Of a stretch of 35,423 nucleotides of DNA, positions 3,435 through 35,061 are shown piece after piece. Source of the stretch: a virus; IMG/VR virus record IMGVR_UViG_3300037056_000015, positions 1-35,423 of that record. The stretch is one strand, 5' to 3'. The notes below the pieces were generated by a model. That model saw only the letters and a program-made list of their open reading frames with translations, was not told the origin of the DNA and searched no databases. Position numbers and translations under genes: made by a program. Position 1 is the first letter of the stretch. Each line of letters opens with the position of its first letter.

Positions 3435-3836
3435 TTACTTTAAGTTGCGTATTTTAATGTATTGTTGTCTCATCCGTCTAATCGTCTCAAACGGGGAGGG
3501 GAATATATATCCAAGCAAGAAGATGCCGAAGGCAATCCACGCTAGGATCTTAGGGCTAGGCATGTTGTTTACTATAAATGCCTCAGTATCAACACCACCT
3601 TGTATGGCAGTGTTGCTTGTGTCGCTGCTAAGGGTAACGTCGCCACCCTCAGTTTCTATTTCATTCTTACGTTGGTCACCAGCAATAACCTGCTTGTTAG
3701 CTTCTTTACCAACCTGTGCGTGGATCTGGGGGCCACCGCCCCCTAGACCTACAGCTTTCTTGACCATATCCATAGGGCTACAGGCCGTTAAGACCAGTAG
3801 CATCAGGACAAGCTCTATACGTTGAAAAGTTGTCAT
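3435..3836 (-). CDS. Putative unimolecular spanin-like lipoprotein, 133 aa
   Basis: An N-terminal lipoprotein signal (hydrophobic LVLMLLVL followed by lipobox LTAC, Cys at residue 19), a ~75-residue periplasmic linker rich in Gln, Thr and Asn, and one transmembrane segment near residues 98-114 (ILAWIAFGIFLLGYIF) with a basic C-terminal tail. Outer-membrane lipid anchor plus inner-membrane C-terminal helix in one chain is the topology of u-spanins such as T1 gp11, which fuse inner and outer membranes in the last lysis step. It sits among virion-surface genes, not beside the holin. The ribosome binding site AAGGAGAG is good. Alternative: a lipoprotein with a host-membrane role such as superinfection exclusion. 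Confidence 0.6.
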   Translation of the reverse strand: MTTFQRIELVLMLLVLTACSPMDMVKKAVGLGGGGPQIHAQVGKEANKQVIAGDQRKNEIETEGGDVTLSSDTSNTAIQGGVDTEAFIVNNMPSPKILAWIAFGIFLLGYIFPSPFETIRRMRQQYIKIRNLK

Positions 3837-3850
3837 GTGTCTCTCCTTCC

Positions 3851-5515
3851 TTATGCTTCTGGGACTAATATTTCACCTAGGGCTACTGAGCCAGTAGGGT
3901 GAGTTAATACGAAGTCTTCACTATCTACTAATATAGTAGCTGAACAAGCGTATGTGAGGGGCATAGTTACACTTTGTCCTTGCACGAATAGTATCATACT
4001 ATCAGGAATAGCTGTCCCATCAGATACAGTAAAGACTGCTCCATCCTGTCTTGTAAATGTTATGATGTCATTGTCGTAATCAAGTGCTACACCAAACCGC
4101 AGTGAAGTACCTGCGGATTCAGTTGTGTGAAGGGTCACTGGGGTTCCACCTGTAACTCCTCCCGATACTGAAATAGTTTGGGAGTTTCTATCTAAAGCGC
4201 AAGTAACAAAAGCAGACCACCCAGACGATAACTCTGCTAGTGTTGTAAGTAGTTGTGCATACCCAGCTCCTGCGCTAGATGAAGGTAAATCTATTACCAT
4301 TTCGTATGTGACTACACCTGTAACACCTGTTCCTGTAGTATGAGTGCCAGAGGCAAGCACTGCACCTACGCCATCTTCAGTAGCTATCTCACCTCTTCCG
4401 ATAGTACTTGTTACGAAGGTAGCTGTGTTCAGCTTGACGCCTGAATAGTCCATAGAACCATCTGCACCGAACACTTGTGCATCTGCGTCTGATAATCCGA
4501 AGCTCCAATCACTAGCACTGACTGGTGCAGGATCAATAGGCTCCTCCATGCTCAGCCATAGGTTCACATGCTCTATGTCTTCTGCTGTAGGTTCAGTGTT
4601 AAAGATGAATGCCTTTGACAACACCTGTGAGTTATCCATGCCGATAGTGCATCCGTTATAGTAACGATAACCTGCATTCGGCCCTACGCCTGTGTAGCTC
4701 GCTTGCGGAACACCATCAATATATGCGTAAACAGCAGATCCGTTAGTTTTTGAGTCAAGAGCAAGTACAATATTGGTGTACACATCGTCATCGACCATGT
4801 CTATATCACCGATAAGCTTTGAACCACAATCGCCTATCTCTCCATTACACTGACCTGTTGCCCCCAAAGCAGGGTACTTGTAGAATTGGTTCTGGTTAGA
4901 ACTAGAGGAGAACTGTATTACACTTAGCGCATTAGTCCCACCAAAATTAGAACGTACGCCGAAGCAGGCACCATACTCGCCAGAGTTTATCCCTATTGAG
5001 TTAGTTATGGAGCTTGAACCATCTGACCAATTGTTATTTGTTGTATAGAAAGTCTGAGTAGATCCACTCTCCTTAGTAATACCCTTAGCGTGAACAGTGA
5101 TACCGCTACCCCCTTCAAGGTGCGGGTATCCAAGGGCGTCTCCGTGATAGCCCTTAATTGACTTAACCTGATCGCCGATAGCATCAACAGGATTGAGCGC
5201 GCTAATGTCTGAGAACATCATTGTCAGGTCAGTGAAATCATAAGCTATGCCTACCTTACCTGTCTGCATAAGAGTAGTGATATCGAAACCTGCTGAACCA
5301 CCTAAGCCGAAGCCCAGTGTGCCATCATCTTGCTTAACCATGAAGTGGTAAGTGCCCTCTGTATGCACGATGAAGATCTCACCCGCCTCTGACTGGTTAG
5401 GATCTAGGGCCTTAGCGTCTAGGCTATCGTAGATGTGGAGGTTGTTGTATGCCATGCGAACTGGCTGCTTCTCTGTGATGCTACGCTTCGCGTTACCTGT
5501 AATGGATAGTGCCAT
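3851..5515 (-). CDS. Large virion surface protein with ConA/LamG-like and SPRY-like regions
   Basis: 554 residues. The N-terminal ~75 residues start MALSITGNA, identical to the start of the 92-aa gene at 6314-6036, and share its GxxFIxxxxGxYxxMV core, so this is probably a shared docking module. A central region (~120-320) is LamG/ConA-like (DSKTNGSAVYAYIDGVPQ, then HVNLWLSMEE). A C-terminal region (~340-554) has a SPRY-like core, LRFGVALDYDNDIITFTRQDG. No catalytic motif is visible. Likely an appendage or capsid-decorating lectin that binds host surface or matrix glycans. Ribosome binding site GAGGAGGAAG. Confidence 0.65.
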   Translation of the reverse strand: MALSITGNAKRSITEKQPVRMAYNNLHIYDSLDAKALDPNQSEAGEIFIVHTEGTYHFMVKQDDGTLGFGLGGSAGFDITTLMQTGKVGIAYDFTDLTMMFSDISALNPVDAIGDQVKSIKGYHGDALGYPHLEGGSGITVHAKGITKESGSTQTFYTTNNNWSDGSSSITNSIGINSGEYGACFGVRSNFGGTNALSVIQFSSSSNQNQFYKYPALGATGQCNGEIGDCGSKLIGDIDMVDDDVYTNIVLALDSKTNGSAVYAYIDGVPQASYTGVGPNAGYRYYNGCTIGMDNSQVLSKAFIFNTEPTAEDIEHVNLWLSMEEPIDPAPVSASDWSFGLSDADAQVFGADGSMDYSGVKLNTATFVTSTIGRGEIATEDGVGAVLASGTHTTGTGVTGVVTYEMVIDLPSSSAGAGYAQLLTTLAELSSGWSAFVTCALDRNSQTISVSGGVTGGTPVTLHTTESAGTSLRFGVALDYDNDIITFTRQDGAVFTVSDGTAIPDSMILFVQGQSVTMPLTYACSATILVDSEDFVLTHPTGSVALGEILVPEA

Positions 5516-6035: not shown

Positions 6036-6314
6036 TTACGCTGGTGTAGTGTAAACGGTTTCTGTAGCTGCATTAACTAGAACCCAAGTGTCAGTAGTAG
6101 CTGTGCCTGTAGCTGTAACCATTGTGTAAACACCAGCGTTGTTAGCAATGAATAAACCGCCGATATCTTTATTAGATAGAACTGTGTCATTAAGTGCGCT
6201 AGTTGCGTCGTCAAGATCCGCCTTGAGTACTACAGGGATCTCGTCAAATACCAAAGGAGTTGCGTCTAGGATGGGGCCTTCTAATACTGCGTTGCCTGTG
6301 ATTGATAGTGCCAT
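6036..6314 (-). CDS. Small virion protein (decoration-type), paralogue 2, 92 aa
   Basis: 92 residues starting MALSITGNA. The core IGGLFIANNAGVYTMVTATGTATTDTW aligns with DGGLFIFDNGTAPVLCVVDDTG in the adjacent 93-aa gene and with EIFIVHTEGTYHFMV near the N-terminus of the 554-aa protein. The chain is a compact beta-rich module. Its leader contains a perfect 14-bp AT palindrome followed by AACAACAAATGAGG, mirroring the leader of the 93-aa gene. Tandem duplication, then divergence, is the simplest history. A capsid-decoration or appendage-docking role is inferred from position after the large terminase and from the shared module. Confidence 0.6.
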   Translation of the reverse strand: MALSITGNAVLEGPILDATPLVFDEIPVVLKADLDDATSALNDTVLSNKDIGGLFIANNAGVYTMVTATGTATTDTWVLVNAATETVYTTPA

Positions 6315-8491: not shown

Positions 8492-8782
8492 TTACCTCTC
8501 AAATGTTAGCACGTTACCTTGGCTCTTCTCGCGAAGCTCCTCAAGTTTCTGAGCTATCTCGCTCTGCTCTTCCGAGTCATCGTTAGAACACACTACTTCG
8601 TTCTGCTGTACCCACTTAGCGGCTGCTAGTAGGTCTTTGGTTTCGATTGTGTAAATACGATCTTCTTCATCAGCACCATCGTGCTTAGTCTTTATCGCAT
8701 TTAGCTTGTCTAGGAAGAGTTCGTTCACAAGACCGTGAACACTCCCTACTTCCGTCTCTGTTGCTACTGTCTTCTTTGACAT
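8492..8782 (-). CDS. terS: Terminase small subunit
   Basis: 96 residues, similar in size to T7 gp18 (89). The small subunit recognises concatemeric DNA and regulates the large terminase. The protein is acidic and helical: a probable DNA-binding/oligomer core (GLVNELFLDKLNAIKTKHDG), a middle amphipathic segment and a charged tail (EIAQKLEELREKSQ). The start has GAGAGG about eight bases upstream, and the first ~33 codons lie inside the 3' part of the holin ORF in another frame. Assignment rests mainly on position between holin and large terminase, as in T7. Confidence 0.8.
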   Translation of the reverse strand: MSKKTVATETEVGSVHGLVNELFLDKLNAIKTKHDGADEEDRIYTIETKDLLAAAKWVQQNEVVCSNDDSEEQSEIAQKLEELREKSQGNVLTFER

Positions 8783-8951
8783 CGTAATTACCTCTCGACA
8801 TGTTAAAAACCATAAGAGCTATACGCATTATAACGTACACCAGTGTCGATATGTACACCCACTCTTGTATGGTAAGGCCCCAGAGCGATAGACCCGTAGG
8901 CACTACCACTGGGGCTATATCCGCTGCTACTTTTAATAAACTATCTGACAT
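8685..8951 (-). CDS. Holin, T7 gp17.5-like (class II)
   Basis: 88 residues with two hydrophobic segments, about 10-27 (ADIAPVVVPTGLSLWGL) and 30-49 (WVYISTLVYVIMRIALMVF), then a charged tail. Two closely spaced membrane helices and position between tail fibre and small terminase match T7 gp17.5, which makes the inner-membrane lesions that time lysis. The start is two bases after the tail-fibre stop, with GAGGAG upstream. Oddly, the last ~32 codons overlap the small terminase gene by 98 bases in a different frame, so the Arg/Cys/Asp-rich C-terminus is constrained by two reading frames. Confidence 0.8.
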   Translation of the reverse strand: MSDSLLKVAADIAPVVVPTGLSLWGLTIQEWVYISTLVYVIMRIALMVFNMSRGNYDVKEDSSNRDGSRECSRSCERTLPRQAKCDKD

Positions 8952-13518: not shown

Positions 13519-16209
13519 CTACTTCTTTAGTTTAAGTGCGTCTGCTAGGTGCATTGCACGCTCAGTTAGTCGGTCTTCATTACCTGATGGGTCGGTGTAC
13601 TTAGTGACCATCTCCTTTCGGACATCTTTATCTCTGCGATTATTCATTGCATCAATAAGCTTAGGCCATGTCTTATCACTTACATCACCAGTATTGTACT
13701 GTATGCTCTGTAGGATCTTCTGGTACTCGATAGGGTAGTCTGCATAGCCCTTGACGGACTGCGTAAGGCTCTGATCTGCATCTTTAAGTTTGTCACTCAT
13801 TATGTCGTTAGCTATATCAACGGTGATTTCGCTCTGGCCCTCTTTGAAGCTCAAGGTATTACCCCTATGCTCAATATAGCCTTGCTTCATTTCTTTCTTA
13901 CTGAGCTTGTATCCGAACCCCAGAGTAGCCGTTCCACCTTCCACACTTTCATGTGGAGTGAATACATTAGCTCCCCTGTCATATCCCGCACCCACGCCAT
14001 TCTCGACGCCACGCATTGCTTGATTAAAGTCTCGCTCCACACCGACAGCTTGCTCGCTATCAACTGCTGTGAGAATGGAGCGTCCGGCTTTTTTACGATC
14101 TTGCTGGTGACGAGTAAGTCTTGCTCGACCTCTTCGGTCTGTTCTACTACCGTCCTCAGCCCAACTCTGGCGCTCAAGGAATCCATCTCTTCCGACCTTG
14201 ATGTCGGAGAGTGGAGCAGGGCGACTAACAGGGCGACCAGTAACAGCGTCGTTAATAGTAAAGGTGCTTCGGCTCTTGCCAACTTCAAAATATAAGTTCT
14301 CTTTGTCATAGTCTCCTCCTGAAAGTAGTTGCTTCTCATGTAAGTCTAAATAGACGTCAAGTGCTTGGTTAAGGTCATCCTTATTGTTCAGCTCGGTAGC
14401 TGCCAATAGGTCGTTAGTAGGCATATCAATCAAATGGCCGGACTCTGTATTAGTCCAGTTACGATCAAGTGTCTTCTGTGCTAGCTCGGCTGAACCTTCA
14501 GCAGTTGCACCGCCTTTGTAGAACTGTAGAGCTAAGTCCTCTACCATCTCAGCGCGACGCTCAGTAACAGCGCTTGACTGTGTATTGAACATCATACCAC
14601 CAGCAGAATGATCCACTGTGTCGATAGATCGTACCTCAGATGCTAGGTCTTCTCGTACAGACTTATCGATAACGCGAGGCTCATTCTTGGCCTTTTGTGC
14701 TGCAACAACGGCGTCAGACATAGAGCCTGTAGCCTCATAGTGAGCATCAAACACAGACATAGCCGCTAGGTCTTTAGGGGACGTGTGCGCTACCTTCATG
14801 TTATCAGACATAGAGTTCCATAGCTCCATAGTAGATTCAGCGCTATCACCTAGGTCTCCGTCCTCATTCACAACAGACATATCTGTTCGTAGTAAGGTGG
14901 TTATCTGGGCTTTGTACTCAGGATCTGTAGCAGAGTTAGCTTCTAGTAGGGAGTGATAGACGTCGCGAGAACTCTTGTCGATGCTGTCCTCTACTTCAGG
15001 GGTCAGCTCACCAGTCTCTCTCATCTCTGCCTTAGCATCTTCTGCACGCTCTAGCAGTATCTTCTTAGCACCAGTCATACCCTTCTTACGCATAGCAGCG
15101 TTGCCTGTGATATGGTTAAGGCCATCACGGCCCTCTTGGTTAGCCATAAGAAACAAGTTAGCAGCTCGGTCGTCGTCTGTCTTCTTAGACAAGTTGACCT
15201 GACCCTTGCGTATGATCCCAGCGATATATGCAGGAGAGTGTACTTGCGTACCATGCTCTTTGTTCTGCTTATCAGCTAGTTTGTATAACTGGTCAGGATC
15301 TAGGTTGGCCTCATAAGTACTCTCAAGTCCTATCTTCTGCTCAGCGACAGTACCAGCTTTACGTTGTACGTTAAAGCGGTTAGCCGTATTCTGTGCACCC
15401 TGTAGCTTCTTACTTCTATCAAACAAGGATACGCCATCTTTATTCTTAGTTTCTTTAGCCCAGTCGATAACCGCTACACGGCCCTGCTTGCCTTCAGATA
15501 CTCCGAACTCGATAGCTCGATCTTGGGCTTCGTTCTGAGATAGTCCCATAGCGACGCCTTCACGCATAATCATAGCTACCTGTGATGCTCCCTGACCTTC
15601 AGGTGCAGACGCTACAGAAGCCATACGCTCATCTAGCGTATTTACTCGTTGAGTATGCTCGATGTTAATCTTATCCATATCTCTGTTAGCCATAAGCTGT
15701 GGGAGAGATGACTGGAACAAGTGGTTGAGTCGCTCTGTACCGTTACTTACATCTGATACACTGGCATCAGAGTTTTCACCTAACCAGCCTTGTCTAGTAG
15801 TCTCGAACTCATCAGCTATCATATCGTCGAACTCTGCATCAGTTCCAGTAAAGCTCTTAGAGGCAAGCCTTAAACGGGCATTACTCCTAGCTATGTTGTT
15901 CTGCATACCAACCATACTATGGGCCATCTTGCCCTCAGCTGTAGCTTCTGGATCTGGATCTAGTCCGCCTAGGGCGTTACTAGTCTGCTTGATCTCGTCA
16001 CGCTTGATATTACGCTTCTTGATAGCACTACCTACACTAACTGCTGCACCTAATGCCTCTAGTATAGCTGGGCCTACTGGCTCCTTAGCATGGCCTACTG
16101 GCATATGCACTGGGGACTGGTCGCCCAAGTCACCTTGACCTACGCCACGACCAACAGACGGGCGCTTATTGACAAGGCCAGTCTTCCTACGTTGTATTTC
16201 ATTCGCCAT
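13519..16209 (-). CDS. Internal virion protein, T7 gp15-like, with C-terminal lysozyme-like domain
   Basis: 896 residues (T7 gp15 is 747). Residues 1-~720 are helical and of low complexity, as in gp15. Residues ~732-896 look like a GH24/muramidase-type lysozyme: catalytic-type Glu in RGVENGVGAGY (about residue 736), then GGTATLGFGYKLSKKE, corresponding to the conserved TxGxGH strand region, and QKILQSIQYNTGDVSDKTWPKLI, the helix with Asn-x-Gly. This would degrade peptidoglycan during DNA ejection. Such virion-associated activity sits on gp16 in T7. Bases 14309-13887 also carry an out-of-frame ORF with its own ribosome binding site. Confidence 0.83.
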   Translation of the reverse strand: MANEIQRRKTGLVNKRPSVGRGVGQGDLGDQSPVHMPVGHAKEPVGPAILEALGAAVSVGSAIKKRNIKRDEIKQTSNALGGLDPDPEATAEGKMAHSMVGMQNNIARSNARLRLASKSFTGTDAEFDDMIADEFETTRQGWLGENSDASVSDVSNGTERLNHLFQSSLPQLMANRDMDKINIEHTQRVNTLDERMASVASAPEGQGASQVAMIMREGVAMGLSQNEAQDRAIEFGVSEGKQGRVAVIDWAKETKNKDGVSLFDRSKKLQGAQNTANRFNVQRKAGTVAEQKIGLESTYEANLDPDQLYKLADKQNKEHGTQVHSPAYIAGIIRKGQVNLSKKTDDDRAANLFLMANQEGRDGLNHITGNAAMRKKGMTGAKKILLERAEDAKAEMRETGELTPEVEDSIDKSSRDVYHSLLEANSATDPEYKAQITTLLRTDMSVVNEDGDLGDSAESTMELWNSMSDNMKVAHTSPKDLAAMSVFDAHYEATGSMSDAVVAAQKAKNEPRVIDKSVREDLASEVRSIDTVDHSAGGMMFNTQSSAVTERRAEMVEDLALQFYKGGATAEGSAELAQKTLDRNWTNTESGHLIDMPTNDLLAATELNNKDDLNQALDVYLDLHEKQLLSGGDYDKENLYFEVGKSRSTFTINDAVTGRPVSRPAPLSDIKVGRDGFLERQSWAEDGSRTDRRGRARLTRHQQDRKKAGRSILTAVDSEQAVGVERDFNQAMRGVENGVGAGYDRGANVFTPHESVEGGTATLGFGYKLSKKEMKQGYIEHRGNTLSFKEGQSEITVDIANDIMSDKLKDADQSLTQSVKGYADYPIEYQKILQSIQYNTGDVSDKTWPKLIDAMNNRRDKDVRKEMVTKYTDPSGNEDRLTERAMHLADALKLKK
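13887..14309 (-). CDS. Nested out-of-frame ORF, putative membrane protein (possible i-spanin-like)
   Basis: A 140-codon ORF lies wholly inside the gp15-like gene, in another frame of the same strand. Its ATG is preceded by an excellent Shine-Dalgarno, AGGAGGAG, four bases upstream. The product starts MTKRTYILKLARAEAP, followed by a leucine/alanine transmembrane helix at about residues 16-33 (PLLLTTLLLVALLVALL) and then a ~105-residue helical, charged, coiled-coil-like tail. Positive N-terminus, one helix and a long periplasmic helical domain is the topology of inner-membrane spanin subunits (Rz-type, T7 gp18.5). Other long shadow ORFs occur in this window, so ORF length alone proves nothing; the ribosome binding site plus topology raise it above the others. 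Confidence 0.35.
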   Translation of the reverse strand: MTKRTYILKLARAEAPLLLTTLLLVALLVALLHSPTSRSEEMDSLSARVGLRTVVEQTEEVEQDLLVTSKIVKKPDAPFSQQLIASKLSVWSETLIKQCVASRMAWVRDMTGELMYSLHMKVWKVERLLWGSDTSSVRKK

Positions 16210-32064: not shown

Positions 32065-33962
32065 ATTAATTCCTCTGCTTTTTGGCCCACTTCTAAGAGT
32101 CTGCCATCATTTGGGTTCATGTTTAGTTTGATTGTCTTACCTGTGGATACTCCACGGATACGAGACTTTACGATTCGTAATGTAGTCATACGCTTTGCTT
32201 CGTCTGTCATTGCCATAGTATCACGCTCAATGCCTATAACTACGTTAGCCCAGAAGCTAATAGACCCAGACCCTCGGAAATCACCGATACTAACAGTGCC
32301 GCCTTCCTCATGAGGTATAGCACCGTCATTAGTTCCTCGCTTGAGGTGAGAAACTAAGTGAATGGTTATAGGCTTCTCGTCTTTGAAAGTACCGATGCGG
32401 CGCATTGCGTCATCAATAGCCTCAACTTTAGAGCCTTTACCTTGCTTCATTTCAATAGCGGTCAGGTTGTCAAGTACAATAGTCTTGATCCCCATCTCTA
32501 CCATCTCATTCATAATAGTCATAACCGTGTCGATGTCCTTCTCTCCTCCTGTATCAGCGATAATCAGGGAGTCTAGGGCTTCTAACTGGTTAAGTGCATC
32601 TGTGCTTTGTTCTTCTGTGTAGTCTAGGTCAGCTGAATAGCCCTCTTCACGGGGGTTATTAATAGGCGGCTCTTGTAGTCGCTTGTTTATAATCTTACCA
32701 GCGAAGCTACGAACAGTCTCAACGTTAGGCTCTTCTAGGTAAATAACTCCGACAATCTCGTCATAGTTACGCATACATTGGAACACGACCTCTTTAGTTG
32801 TCTCAGTCTTACCTACACCAGACCCAGCACCCCAGATGTACAGTGAATGCTCTCGCATACCGAACGTTAGAGGGTTCAGAGAGGGCCAAGGCCAAGACTT
32901 ACCCATAGTAGGCATCTCTTTAGCTTTCTCTATTAAAGAACTCACAGAGCGAAGCTTACCGCCACCTGTTGTGTCTTGTGGGGAGAAGTACGCAGAACAG
33001 AACTCAGCGGCTTTACCCTGTATGATGCAGTCGTTTGGGTCTTTACAGCCTACAGGCATAACAATACGCTGACACTTGCCACGGAACAGGCGTGATACGG
33101 TCTTGGTTAGTTCTTTTCCGGTTTCGTCATCATCAAAAGCCAGTAAGATTTTACTGAACTTGTTGATGTGATCCTTGTTATGGATAAACTCTTCAACAGC
33201 CTTTTCACCCTTCATAGGTGACCAGACATGGGCCAGCTTACCCGCATACGACGAGTTCTTGGCATTAGATTCAGAGATCATCTGGAAAGCTGCCATAGCG
33301 TCACACTCTCCGCCAGTAAGTACTAACGTATGGTAGAATACTCCACTGTCTACCACTTCTTTAGTGGTATTCATACCAAAGAGGTCTCCATTACCGAATA
33401 GCTTACCGATGTTTCCACGGGTAAAATCTTTAGGTAAGGTTCTGCACTTAGCGCCAGTAAGTACTCCATTATCGTAGCGGGGGTAGTAGTGCCGCTCCAC
33501 TTGGTTTTTCTCATCAACTCCACAATGGACGTTGTAAACCTTAGCCGCTAGCCCTTTGATCTTGCGACCCTCTAGGCTACGTACCTTTAGTTTATTAAAG
33601 TAAGCTATTTCGTTATCCCACTGGGCCTCTTTCTCTTCACGCTCTAAGTCATTCATAACATAGTATGCGTTCTCGTTAGACATGCCAGACATAGCCAGAG
33701 AGCGCGTATAAGGAGAGTTAATTTTCCCCTCATCAAGCAACGTCTGATACTGTTGCGTCGTGTAGCGGATCTTACCGTTGATCTCAGTGCTAAGTATGAA
33801 GTCTTCACCTGTTGGGTGTACATAGTGAGACTCTCCGTCACGGTGGTATGTACTACGGTTGCATAGCATGCCCCCATCCTCAAACACCATAAGGTGGTTG
33901 CCAGACGAGTCGTGGCCGTTCTCTTGGCACTTAGGGCAAGGTAGGTTGGATACAATAGCCAT
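32061..33962 (-). CDS. Primase-helicase, T7 gp4-like
   Basis: 633 residues (T7 gp4A is 566). N-terminal zinc-binding region: C9-x2-C12, C34 and H40, instead of the four-cysteine set of T7. Then TOPRIM primase motifs (LVLTGGECDAMAAF with the Glu, ILLAFDDDETGKEL with the acidic triad) and a RecA-like helicase with Walker A WGAGSGVGKTET, Walker B IKTIVLDNLTAI and the H4/sensor HLVSHLKRG. It primes and unwinds at the fork with the gp5-like polymerase. It follows a small basic gene directly (stop and start separated by one base). Confidence 0.93.
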   Translation of the reverse strand: MAIVSNLPCPKCQENGHDSSGNHLMVFEDGGMLCNRSTYHRDGESHYVHPTGEDFILSTEINGKIRYTTQQYQTLLDEGKINSPYTRSLAMSGMSNENAYYVMNDLEREEKEAQWDNEIAYFNKLKVRSLEGRKIKGLAAKVYNVHCGVDEKNQVERHYYPRYDNGVLTGAKCRTLPKDFTRGNIGKLFGNGDLFGMNTTKEVVDSGVFYHTLVLTGGECDAMAAFQMISESNAKNSSYAGKLAHVWSPMKGEKAVEEFIHNKDHINKFSKILLAFDDDETGKELTKTVSRLFRGKCQRIVMPVGCKDPNDCIIQGKAAEFCSAYFSPQDTTGGGKLRSVSSLIEKAKEMPTMGKSWPWPSLNPLTFGMREHSLYIWGAGSGVGKTETTKEVVFQCMRNYDEIVGVIYLEEPNVETVRSFAGKIINKRLQEPPINNPREEGYSADLDYTEEQSTDALNQLEALDSLIIADTGGEKDIDTVMTIMNEMVEMGIKTIVLDNLTAIEMKQGKGSKVEAIDDAMRRIGTFKDEKPITIHLVSHLKRGTNDGAIPHEEGGTVSIGDFRGSGSISFWANVVIGIERDTMAMTDEAKRMTTLRIVKSRIRGVSTGKTIKLNMNPNDGRLLEVGQKAEELI

Positions 33963-34503: not shown

Positions 34504-35061
34504 TTATGCCGATTTTCGGCTATGCATCTCTGCCGCATTTACCTGACGGGAGACGAACACACAAGTTGTAGGGCCATACACTTTCTTCTCTATACCTTGC
34601 TGTAGTATGTCCTTATCTAGGTCTTGGCCTTCTTTATGGTTACACTCGTAGAACTCTGCGAAGTTCTGATAGTTGTGCCAGTCCGGATGTACAGTGACTC
34701 CCTTAGCTCCGTAATACTCATAGGCTGGGACAGCCTCAACATAACAACGCATAAGTATTCCTTTCCATACATTATAAGCAGGTACGGCTTTCGTATTAAT
34801 AGATACGGGGTAATCACCAACACCAGCGTAGCCTACTCCACACACGTTAGGTCTAAGAGGGTCTCTTACTTTCTTGCGGCGTAGGCAGCTTAAACTTACT
34901 ACAGTCTCGTAGCCAGTCTCTAAGAACTGTACGTGCATGTTTCCTGCATCGTTTCTATCTAGTATCTTTAACTTACCATAACTCTTTGTCTCTAGGACAT
35001 AGCCCACCACGTATTTAAAAGGACGTCCTACTTTGTTAATGTTATCTGCTTTTGTTATCAT
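34504..35061 (-). CDS. AP2/HNH-like phage protein, 185 aa
   Basis: 185 residues. N-terminal part beta-rich (KYVVGYVLETKSYGKLKILDRNDAGN). The C-terminal half matches a phage family with W-x-[GM]-[IL]-L-x-R-C-Y (VWKGILMRCY), AYEYYGAKGVTVHPDWHNYQNFAEFY and LDKDILQQG, often ending in a Tyr-rich YGPTTCVFV strand. These proteins are treated as HNH/homing-type or AP2-like DNA-binding proteins; no full HNH set (two His and an Asn) is obvious here, so nuclease activity is not claimed. It is the first gene after the promoter and terminator cluster at the right end. Confidence 0.65.
   Translation of the reverse strand: MITKADNINKVGRPFKYVVGYVLETKSYGKLKILDRNDAGNMHVQFLETGYETVVSLSCLRRKKVRDPLRPNVCGVGYAGVGDYPVSINTKAVPAYNVWKGILMRCYVEAVPAYEYYGAKGVTVHPDWHNYQNFAEFYECNHKEGQDLDKDILQQGIEKKVYGPTTCVFVSRQVNAAEMHSRKSA

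Follow-up and report, generated by a model that had tools for sequence, protein, structure and literature searches.

A candidate membrane-protein gene overprinted in the lysozyme-domain ejection-protein gene of an SP6-related podophage

The gene for a lysozyme-domain ejection protein of an SP6-related podophage contains, on the same strand and in another frame, a 140-codon open reading frame (ORF) that is likely to be coding. Slightly less firmly, and judged from features of the sequence, this nested ORF is probably a genuine, lineage-specific overprinted gene that is translated into a single-pass inner-membrane protein, a judgement that does not extend to a role in lysis. The rarity of the open frame, the ATG led by a Shine-Dalgarno (SD) sequence, and the shifts in hydrophobicity and acidity of the encoded protein together favor an overprinted gene over a by-product of the host coding sequence.

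The window, that is, the whole stretch of DNA that was analyzed, is a 35,423-base viral contig, probably incomplete, of an autographivirus-type podophage related to SP6. Its minus strand carries the genes for the terminase, the portal-type adaptor, the capsid, the tail, and the ejection proteins. The features that concern the nested ORF are the following.

13519..16209, minus strand: host gene, encoding an 896-residue internal virion (ejection) protein with a C-terminal lysozyme domain; homologue of SP6 gp36 (phrog_4290, E = 5e-67)
13887..14309, minus strand: nested +1-frame ORF, ATG at 14309, 140 residues, predicted single-pass membrane protein (from translation, open-frame statistics, and composition tests)
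14211..14270, minus strand: hydrophobic segment of the nested product, approximately residues 14–33 (EAPLLLTTLLLVALLVALLH), with a Kyte-Doolittle value of 2.40 over 19 residues
14313..14320, minus strand: SD sequence AGGAGGAG, which ends 3 nt ahead of the ATG, with AGGAGG ending 5 nt ahead

The host gene and the start of the nested ORF

The host gene lies in an ejection operon, in which its neighbors are a gp14-like gene and a gene for an ejection protein of phrog_342. The phrog_4290 profile matches the host protein over residues 48–810, and 79 phage records match it over at least 80% of its length at approximately 22–25% identity. The host frame belongs to the family of lysozyme-domain ejection proteins that includes SP6 gp36 and K1E gp35; these proteins are gp15-like and, in the SP6/K1E group, carry a lysozyme domain (PMC8954989). 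Five of the nine aligned family members, including SP6 gp36, match the Pfam model Phage_lysozyme (PF00959). No match to this model was found for the host protein itself, and the start of its lysozyme domain, near residue 728, was placed by alignment.

The nested ORF spans the linker ahead of the lysozyme domain and approximately the first 46 residues of the domain. The original prediction had described a 140-codon ORF, out of frame on the strand of the host gene, that overlaps residues ~634–774 of a gp15-like protein. Both the ORF, which runs from 14309 to 13887 on the minus strand, and the overlap, which lies in the +1 frame of the SP6 gp36-like gene, are confirmed. The product of the ORF is MTKRTYILKLARAEAPLLLTTLLLVALLVALLHSPTSRSEEMDSLSARVGLRTVVEQTEEVEQDLLVTSKIVKKPDAPFSQQLIASKLSVWSETLIKQCVASRMAWVRDMTGELMYSLHMKVWKVERLLWGSDTSSVRKK. 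Arginine makes up 15% of the host stretch 634–720, compared with 5.4% outside of it, and this richness fits the arginine enrichment that has been reported for overlapping genes in viruses (PMC6195259). A local drop in the conservation of the host frame within the overlap was looked for, and none was seen.

The start region of the nested ORF reads TTTCAGGAGGAGACTATG. The SD sequence that had been noted ahead of the ATG is present and strong, but the distance of four bases given for it requires correction, since AGGAGGAG ends three bases from the ATG; the spacing of 5 nt between AGGAGG and the ATG is normal. An earlier in-frame ATG at 14339, which would give a product of 150 residues, has no SD sequence ahead of it. 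Among the genes of the window, an SD match of at least 6 nt precedes 8 of 361 out-of-frame ATGs versus 8 of 26 gene starts. Across 19 phage loci, the nested ORF is the sole one in which a 6-nt SD sequence and an ATG are followed by at least 100 codons. The predicted RNA structure near the start is unremarkable (z = 0.59) and speaks neither for nor against initiation.

Open-frame statistics, composition, and relatives

The open interval, 150 codons in length, is rare given the host protein. None of 20,000 synonymous shuffles of the host gene left it open, and the analytic probability of an open interval, given the host protein and its codon usage, is 10^-5.3 (~5e-6), the same with or without next-base context. 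The remainder of the host gene is ordinary in this respect, with 52 stops in the +1 frame versus 55.8 expected. When all genes of the window were recoded, a nested ORF on the same strand reached 140 codons or more in 11 of 1500 and in 27 of 6000 trials (~0.5–0.7%), and one of this length that begins with an SD-led ATG arose in none of 6000 recoded genomes. The length test was calibrated on 123 genes from 19 related loci, among which the nested ORF ranks first; because five genes reach p < 0.01 versus approximately one expected, the shuffle null is only roughly calibrated and slightly liberal. The p-values also overstate the case, because the candidate came from a reading that set out to find oddities. 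The nested frame is unlikely to have been left open by chance.

The composition of the predicted product departs from that of by-products in two independent ways. The N-terminal hydropathy of 2.40 exceeds that of 98.6% of open synonymous recodings (mean of 1.23, p = 0.014). The product contains 15 Asp or Glu residues versus 8.0 in random recodings, a difference with p = 0.006 given an open frame, in a test that was selected after the composition had been seen. The 19 loci contain 28 nested +1 ORFs that reach 100 codons, and the ORF described here is alone among them in being unusual both in its membrane segment and in its acidity. Other properties of the product resemble those of by-products: its basic N terminus is what any recoding would give, the helix propensity of its tail is on par with that of by-products (p = 0.33), and the single Cys of the tail is uninformative, as recodings average 1.7. 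The heptad score of the tail gives p = 0.10 against recodings.

The alternative that survives best is that the frame is open by chance. The ORF would then be a purposeless by-product of codon choice and of a Gly/Arg-rich linker in the host protein, and its SD sequence would be accidental; we regard this as possible, although on balance unlikely. Long nested +1 ORFs do arise by chance in such phages, and eight genes across the 19 loci contain one that reaches 130 codons. Against this explanation stand the rare coincidence of length, ATG, and SD sequence (the 0 of 6000 above) and the paired departures in hydrophobicity and acidity, which none of the other 27 nested ORFs combines.

The comparison with relatives is in line with a chance origin, in that relatives, homologues, and conservation in SP6-family phages are all lacking. 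Scans of viral contigs, genome contigs, and phage records with single proteins, profiles, and DNA found no close relatives of the phage; the best terminase among the viral contigs is 52% identical, and the nearest phages are at ~50%. No relatives of the host gene above ~25% identity were found in these three collections. Searches of PHROGs, Pfam, NCBIfam, and phage, plasmid, and solved-structure sequences gave no homologue of the nested product, which also does not match the SP6 ORF gp47 of the lysis region. None of the 13 SP6-family homologues that were read (~22–24% identical) has a long +1 ORF with an SD sequence at this site, the +1 frame being either interrupted or without an SD sequence. 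An ancestral origin of the nested ORF in the family is rejected on these grounds; a real ORF would be recent or lineage-specific. Hydrophobic +1 stretches are often found at the same site in these homologues, as is also compatible with a by-product, because the host-frame motif PVxxAxPLSxIK is conserved. Host-frame motifs common to the relatives (PVxxAxPLS and Gly-Gly) supply part of the hydrophobicity of the nested product and part of the SD sequence.

Predicted topology and possible roles

The basic N-terminal stretch and the one strong transmembrane helix of the original prediction are borne out at the level of prediction: Lys and Arg residues, with a net charge of +3 in the first 20 residues, precede a single strongly hydrophobic segment of hydropathy 2.40. 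The product is probably oriented with its N terminus inside the cell, according to this modeled topology. The long helical tail fares less evenly. AlphaFold2, run on the single sequence, predicts an all-helical protein (helices at residues 3–32, 43–71, and 78–130), but with a pLDDT of only 59, and the helix propensity is no higher than in by-products.

With the nested ORF taken as an overprinted gene, translation, topology, and late expression may be inferred as follows. Ribosomes would start within the ejection-protein mRNA at the AGGAGG-5 nt-ATG element and would translate 140 codons in the +1 frame. Once inserted into the inner membrane, the product would have its basic N terminus on the cytoplasmic side and would extend a tail of ~105 residues, mostly helical, into the periplasm. 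Because it is encoded on the message of a structural gene, its synthesis would fall late in infection, together with that of the ejection proteins. The likeliest role for it, as a guess, is an accessory one at the envelope when infection ends, in lysis or in its timing, and this guess is considerably more apt to miss than to hit; granted that the gene is real, such an action is a tentative suggestion. A functional lysis gene, whether i-spanin-like or a self-sufficient membrane lysis protein, overprinted in the virion-lysozyme gene of a dsDNA phage is unlikely. If there were one, a single stretch of DNA would encode part of the lysozyme for entry and a protein for exit.

Two genes elsewhere in the window bear on these roles.

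8685..8951, minus strand: holin gene, 88 residues (phrog_920 holin, E = 6.8e-12), between the tail fibre and small terminase genes, as on the SP6 map
3435..3836, minus strand: u-spanin-like gene, 133 residues, with the lipobox LTAC and, at the C terminus, a transmembrane segment (Rz-like spanin profile phrog_1804, E = 1.4e-8)

The second of these was named in the original prediction as a rival u-spanin and is real; it also matches NCBIfam spanin2_3 (E = 4.9e-5, below the curated cut-off). As the nested product would be, this u-spanin (T1 gp11 type) is a small envelope protein of the phage, but its arrangement of an N-terminal lipobox and a C-terminal transmembrane segment is the reverse of that in the nested product. 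No endolysin was recognized on the contig, which is probably incomplete.

A different function for a late inner-membrane protein would be superinfection exclusion or modulation of the lysozyme, in which the periplasmic tail of a protein anchored in the inner membrane would keep out the DNA or ejection proteins of another infecting phage, or would hold back the virion lysozyme in whose gene it is encoded. The T4 proteins Sp and Imm are functional precedents, the predicted topology would suit such a function, lysis genes are already located elsewhere on the contig, and the coupling to an ejection-protein gene would mean co-expression. Nothing in the sequence points specifically to this function, however, and late expression would be unusual for exclusion; we consider it rather improbable.

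Less probable still is the role suggested in the original prediction, that of an i-spanin, the inner-membrane half of a two-component spanin, and this part of the prediction was not borne out. The likeness to the two-component i-spanins (λ Rz, those of the SP6/K1-5 group, and T7 gp18.5) consists of an N-terminal transmembrane segment, a predicted helical periplasmic tail with one Cys, and a similar length, the size of the nested product being close to those of λ Rz and T7 gp18.5. This topology resembles that of an i-spanin and also that of any single-pass inner-membrane protein. SP6, K1E, and K1-5 are listed with two-component spanins by Kongari et al. (PMC6139136), and embedded spanin genes are known, as in λ Rz1 within Rz (PMC6139136). 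The nested product, in contrast, has no similarity to known spanin families in PHROGs, Pfam, or NCBIfam, and its tail lacks a significant heptad pattern. The nested ORF lies within the ejection-protein operon, away from the holin and u-spanin genes and outside any lysis cassette, and the u-spanin would by itself serve for disruption of the outer membrane. An o-spanin partner was not found on the coding strand of the probably incomplete contig, because the only credible lipoprotein ORF returned by a lipobox scan is the u-spanin at 3836–3435. An o-spanin nested inside the nested ORF itself was considered and rejected, as ORFs in the third sense frame do not exceed five codons along the host gene and the lipobox scan gave none there.

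A +1 frameshift near host residue 630, which would yield a shortened ejection protein that ends in a membrane anchor, is highly improbable: around the site, 152 codons of the +1 frame are free of stops and the junction carries an SD-like element, but that element is downstream of the only CTT-T context whereas prfB-type +1 shifts have it upstream, initiation at the SD-ATG pair is the simpler account, and the remaining sense frame has no ORF of more than five codons.

Nested genes in other phages and elsewhere in the window

The protein encoded by the lysis gene E of φX174 is shorter than the nested product, acts alone on MraY, and is the product of the only lysis gene of that phage, whereas the phage studied here encodes both a holin and a u-spanin; no sequence relation between E and the nested product was found. 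The likeness is one of arrangement. Gene E lies wholly within the scaffold gene D, in another frame and under a common promoter, and thus a small protein with a transmembrane segment is nested in a virion-assembly gene in this phage as well (PMC4825663), a precedent in view of which the description of the nested ORF as a new arrangement was too strong.

If the overprinted gene is confirmed, it would be a lineage-specific counterpart of E in D, but in a tailed phage already equipped with holin and spanin genes, and would show that a gene was born within an ejection protein that carries an enzyme. In a limited literature search, no membrane-protein gene was found nested in a tailed-phage virion-lysozyme gene, and we know of no report of one. 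Ordinary gene callers omit nested genes, so counts of de novo membrane proteins that arose within long virion genes in tailed phages may be too low.

Several further overlaps and one repeated sequence were observed in the window. On the minus strand, the holin gene (8685–8951) and the small-terminase gene (8492–8782) overlap out of frame by ~98 bases. Opposite the u-spanin-like gene, an antisense ORF of 126 codons with a TTG start (3445–3825, plus strand) is matched in length in none of 500 synonymous shuffles of that gene. A nested +1 ORF of 100 codons (33653–33955, minus strand), also with a TTG start, lies where the primase/helicase gene begins (p ~0.003) and has a by-product-like composition, and the HNH endonuclease gene (34504–35061, minus strand) holds a +1 ORF of 68 codons (p = 0.002). 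The proteins encoded at 3851–5515 and 6036–6314 on the minus strand have the N terminus MALSITGNA in common, which suggests a duplicated N-terminal module.
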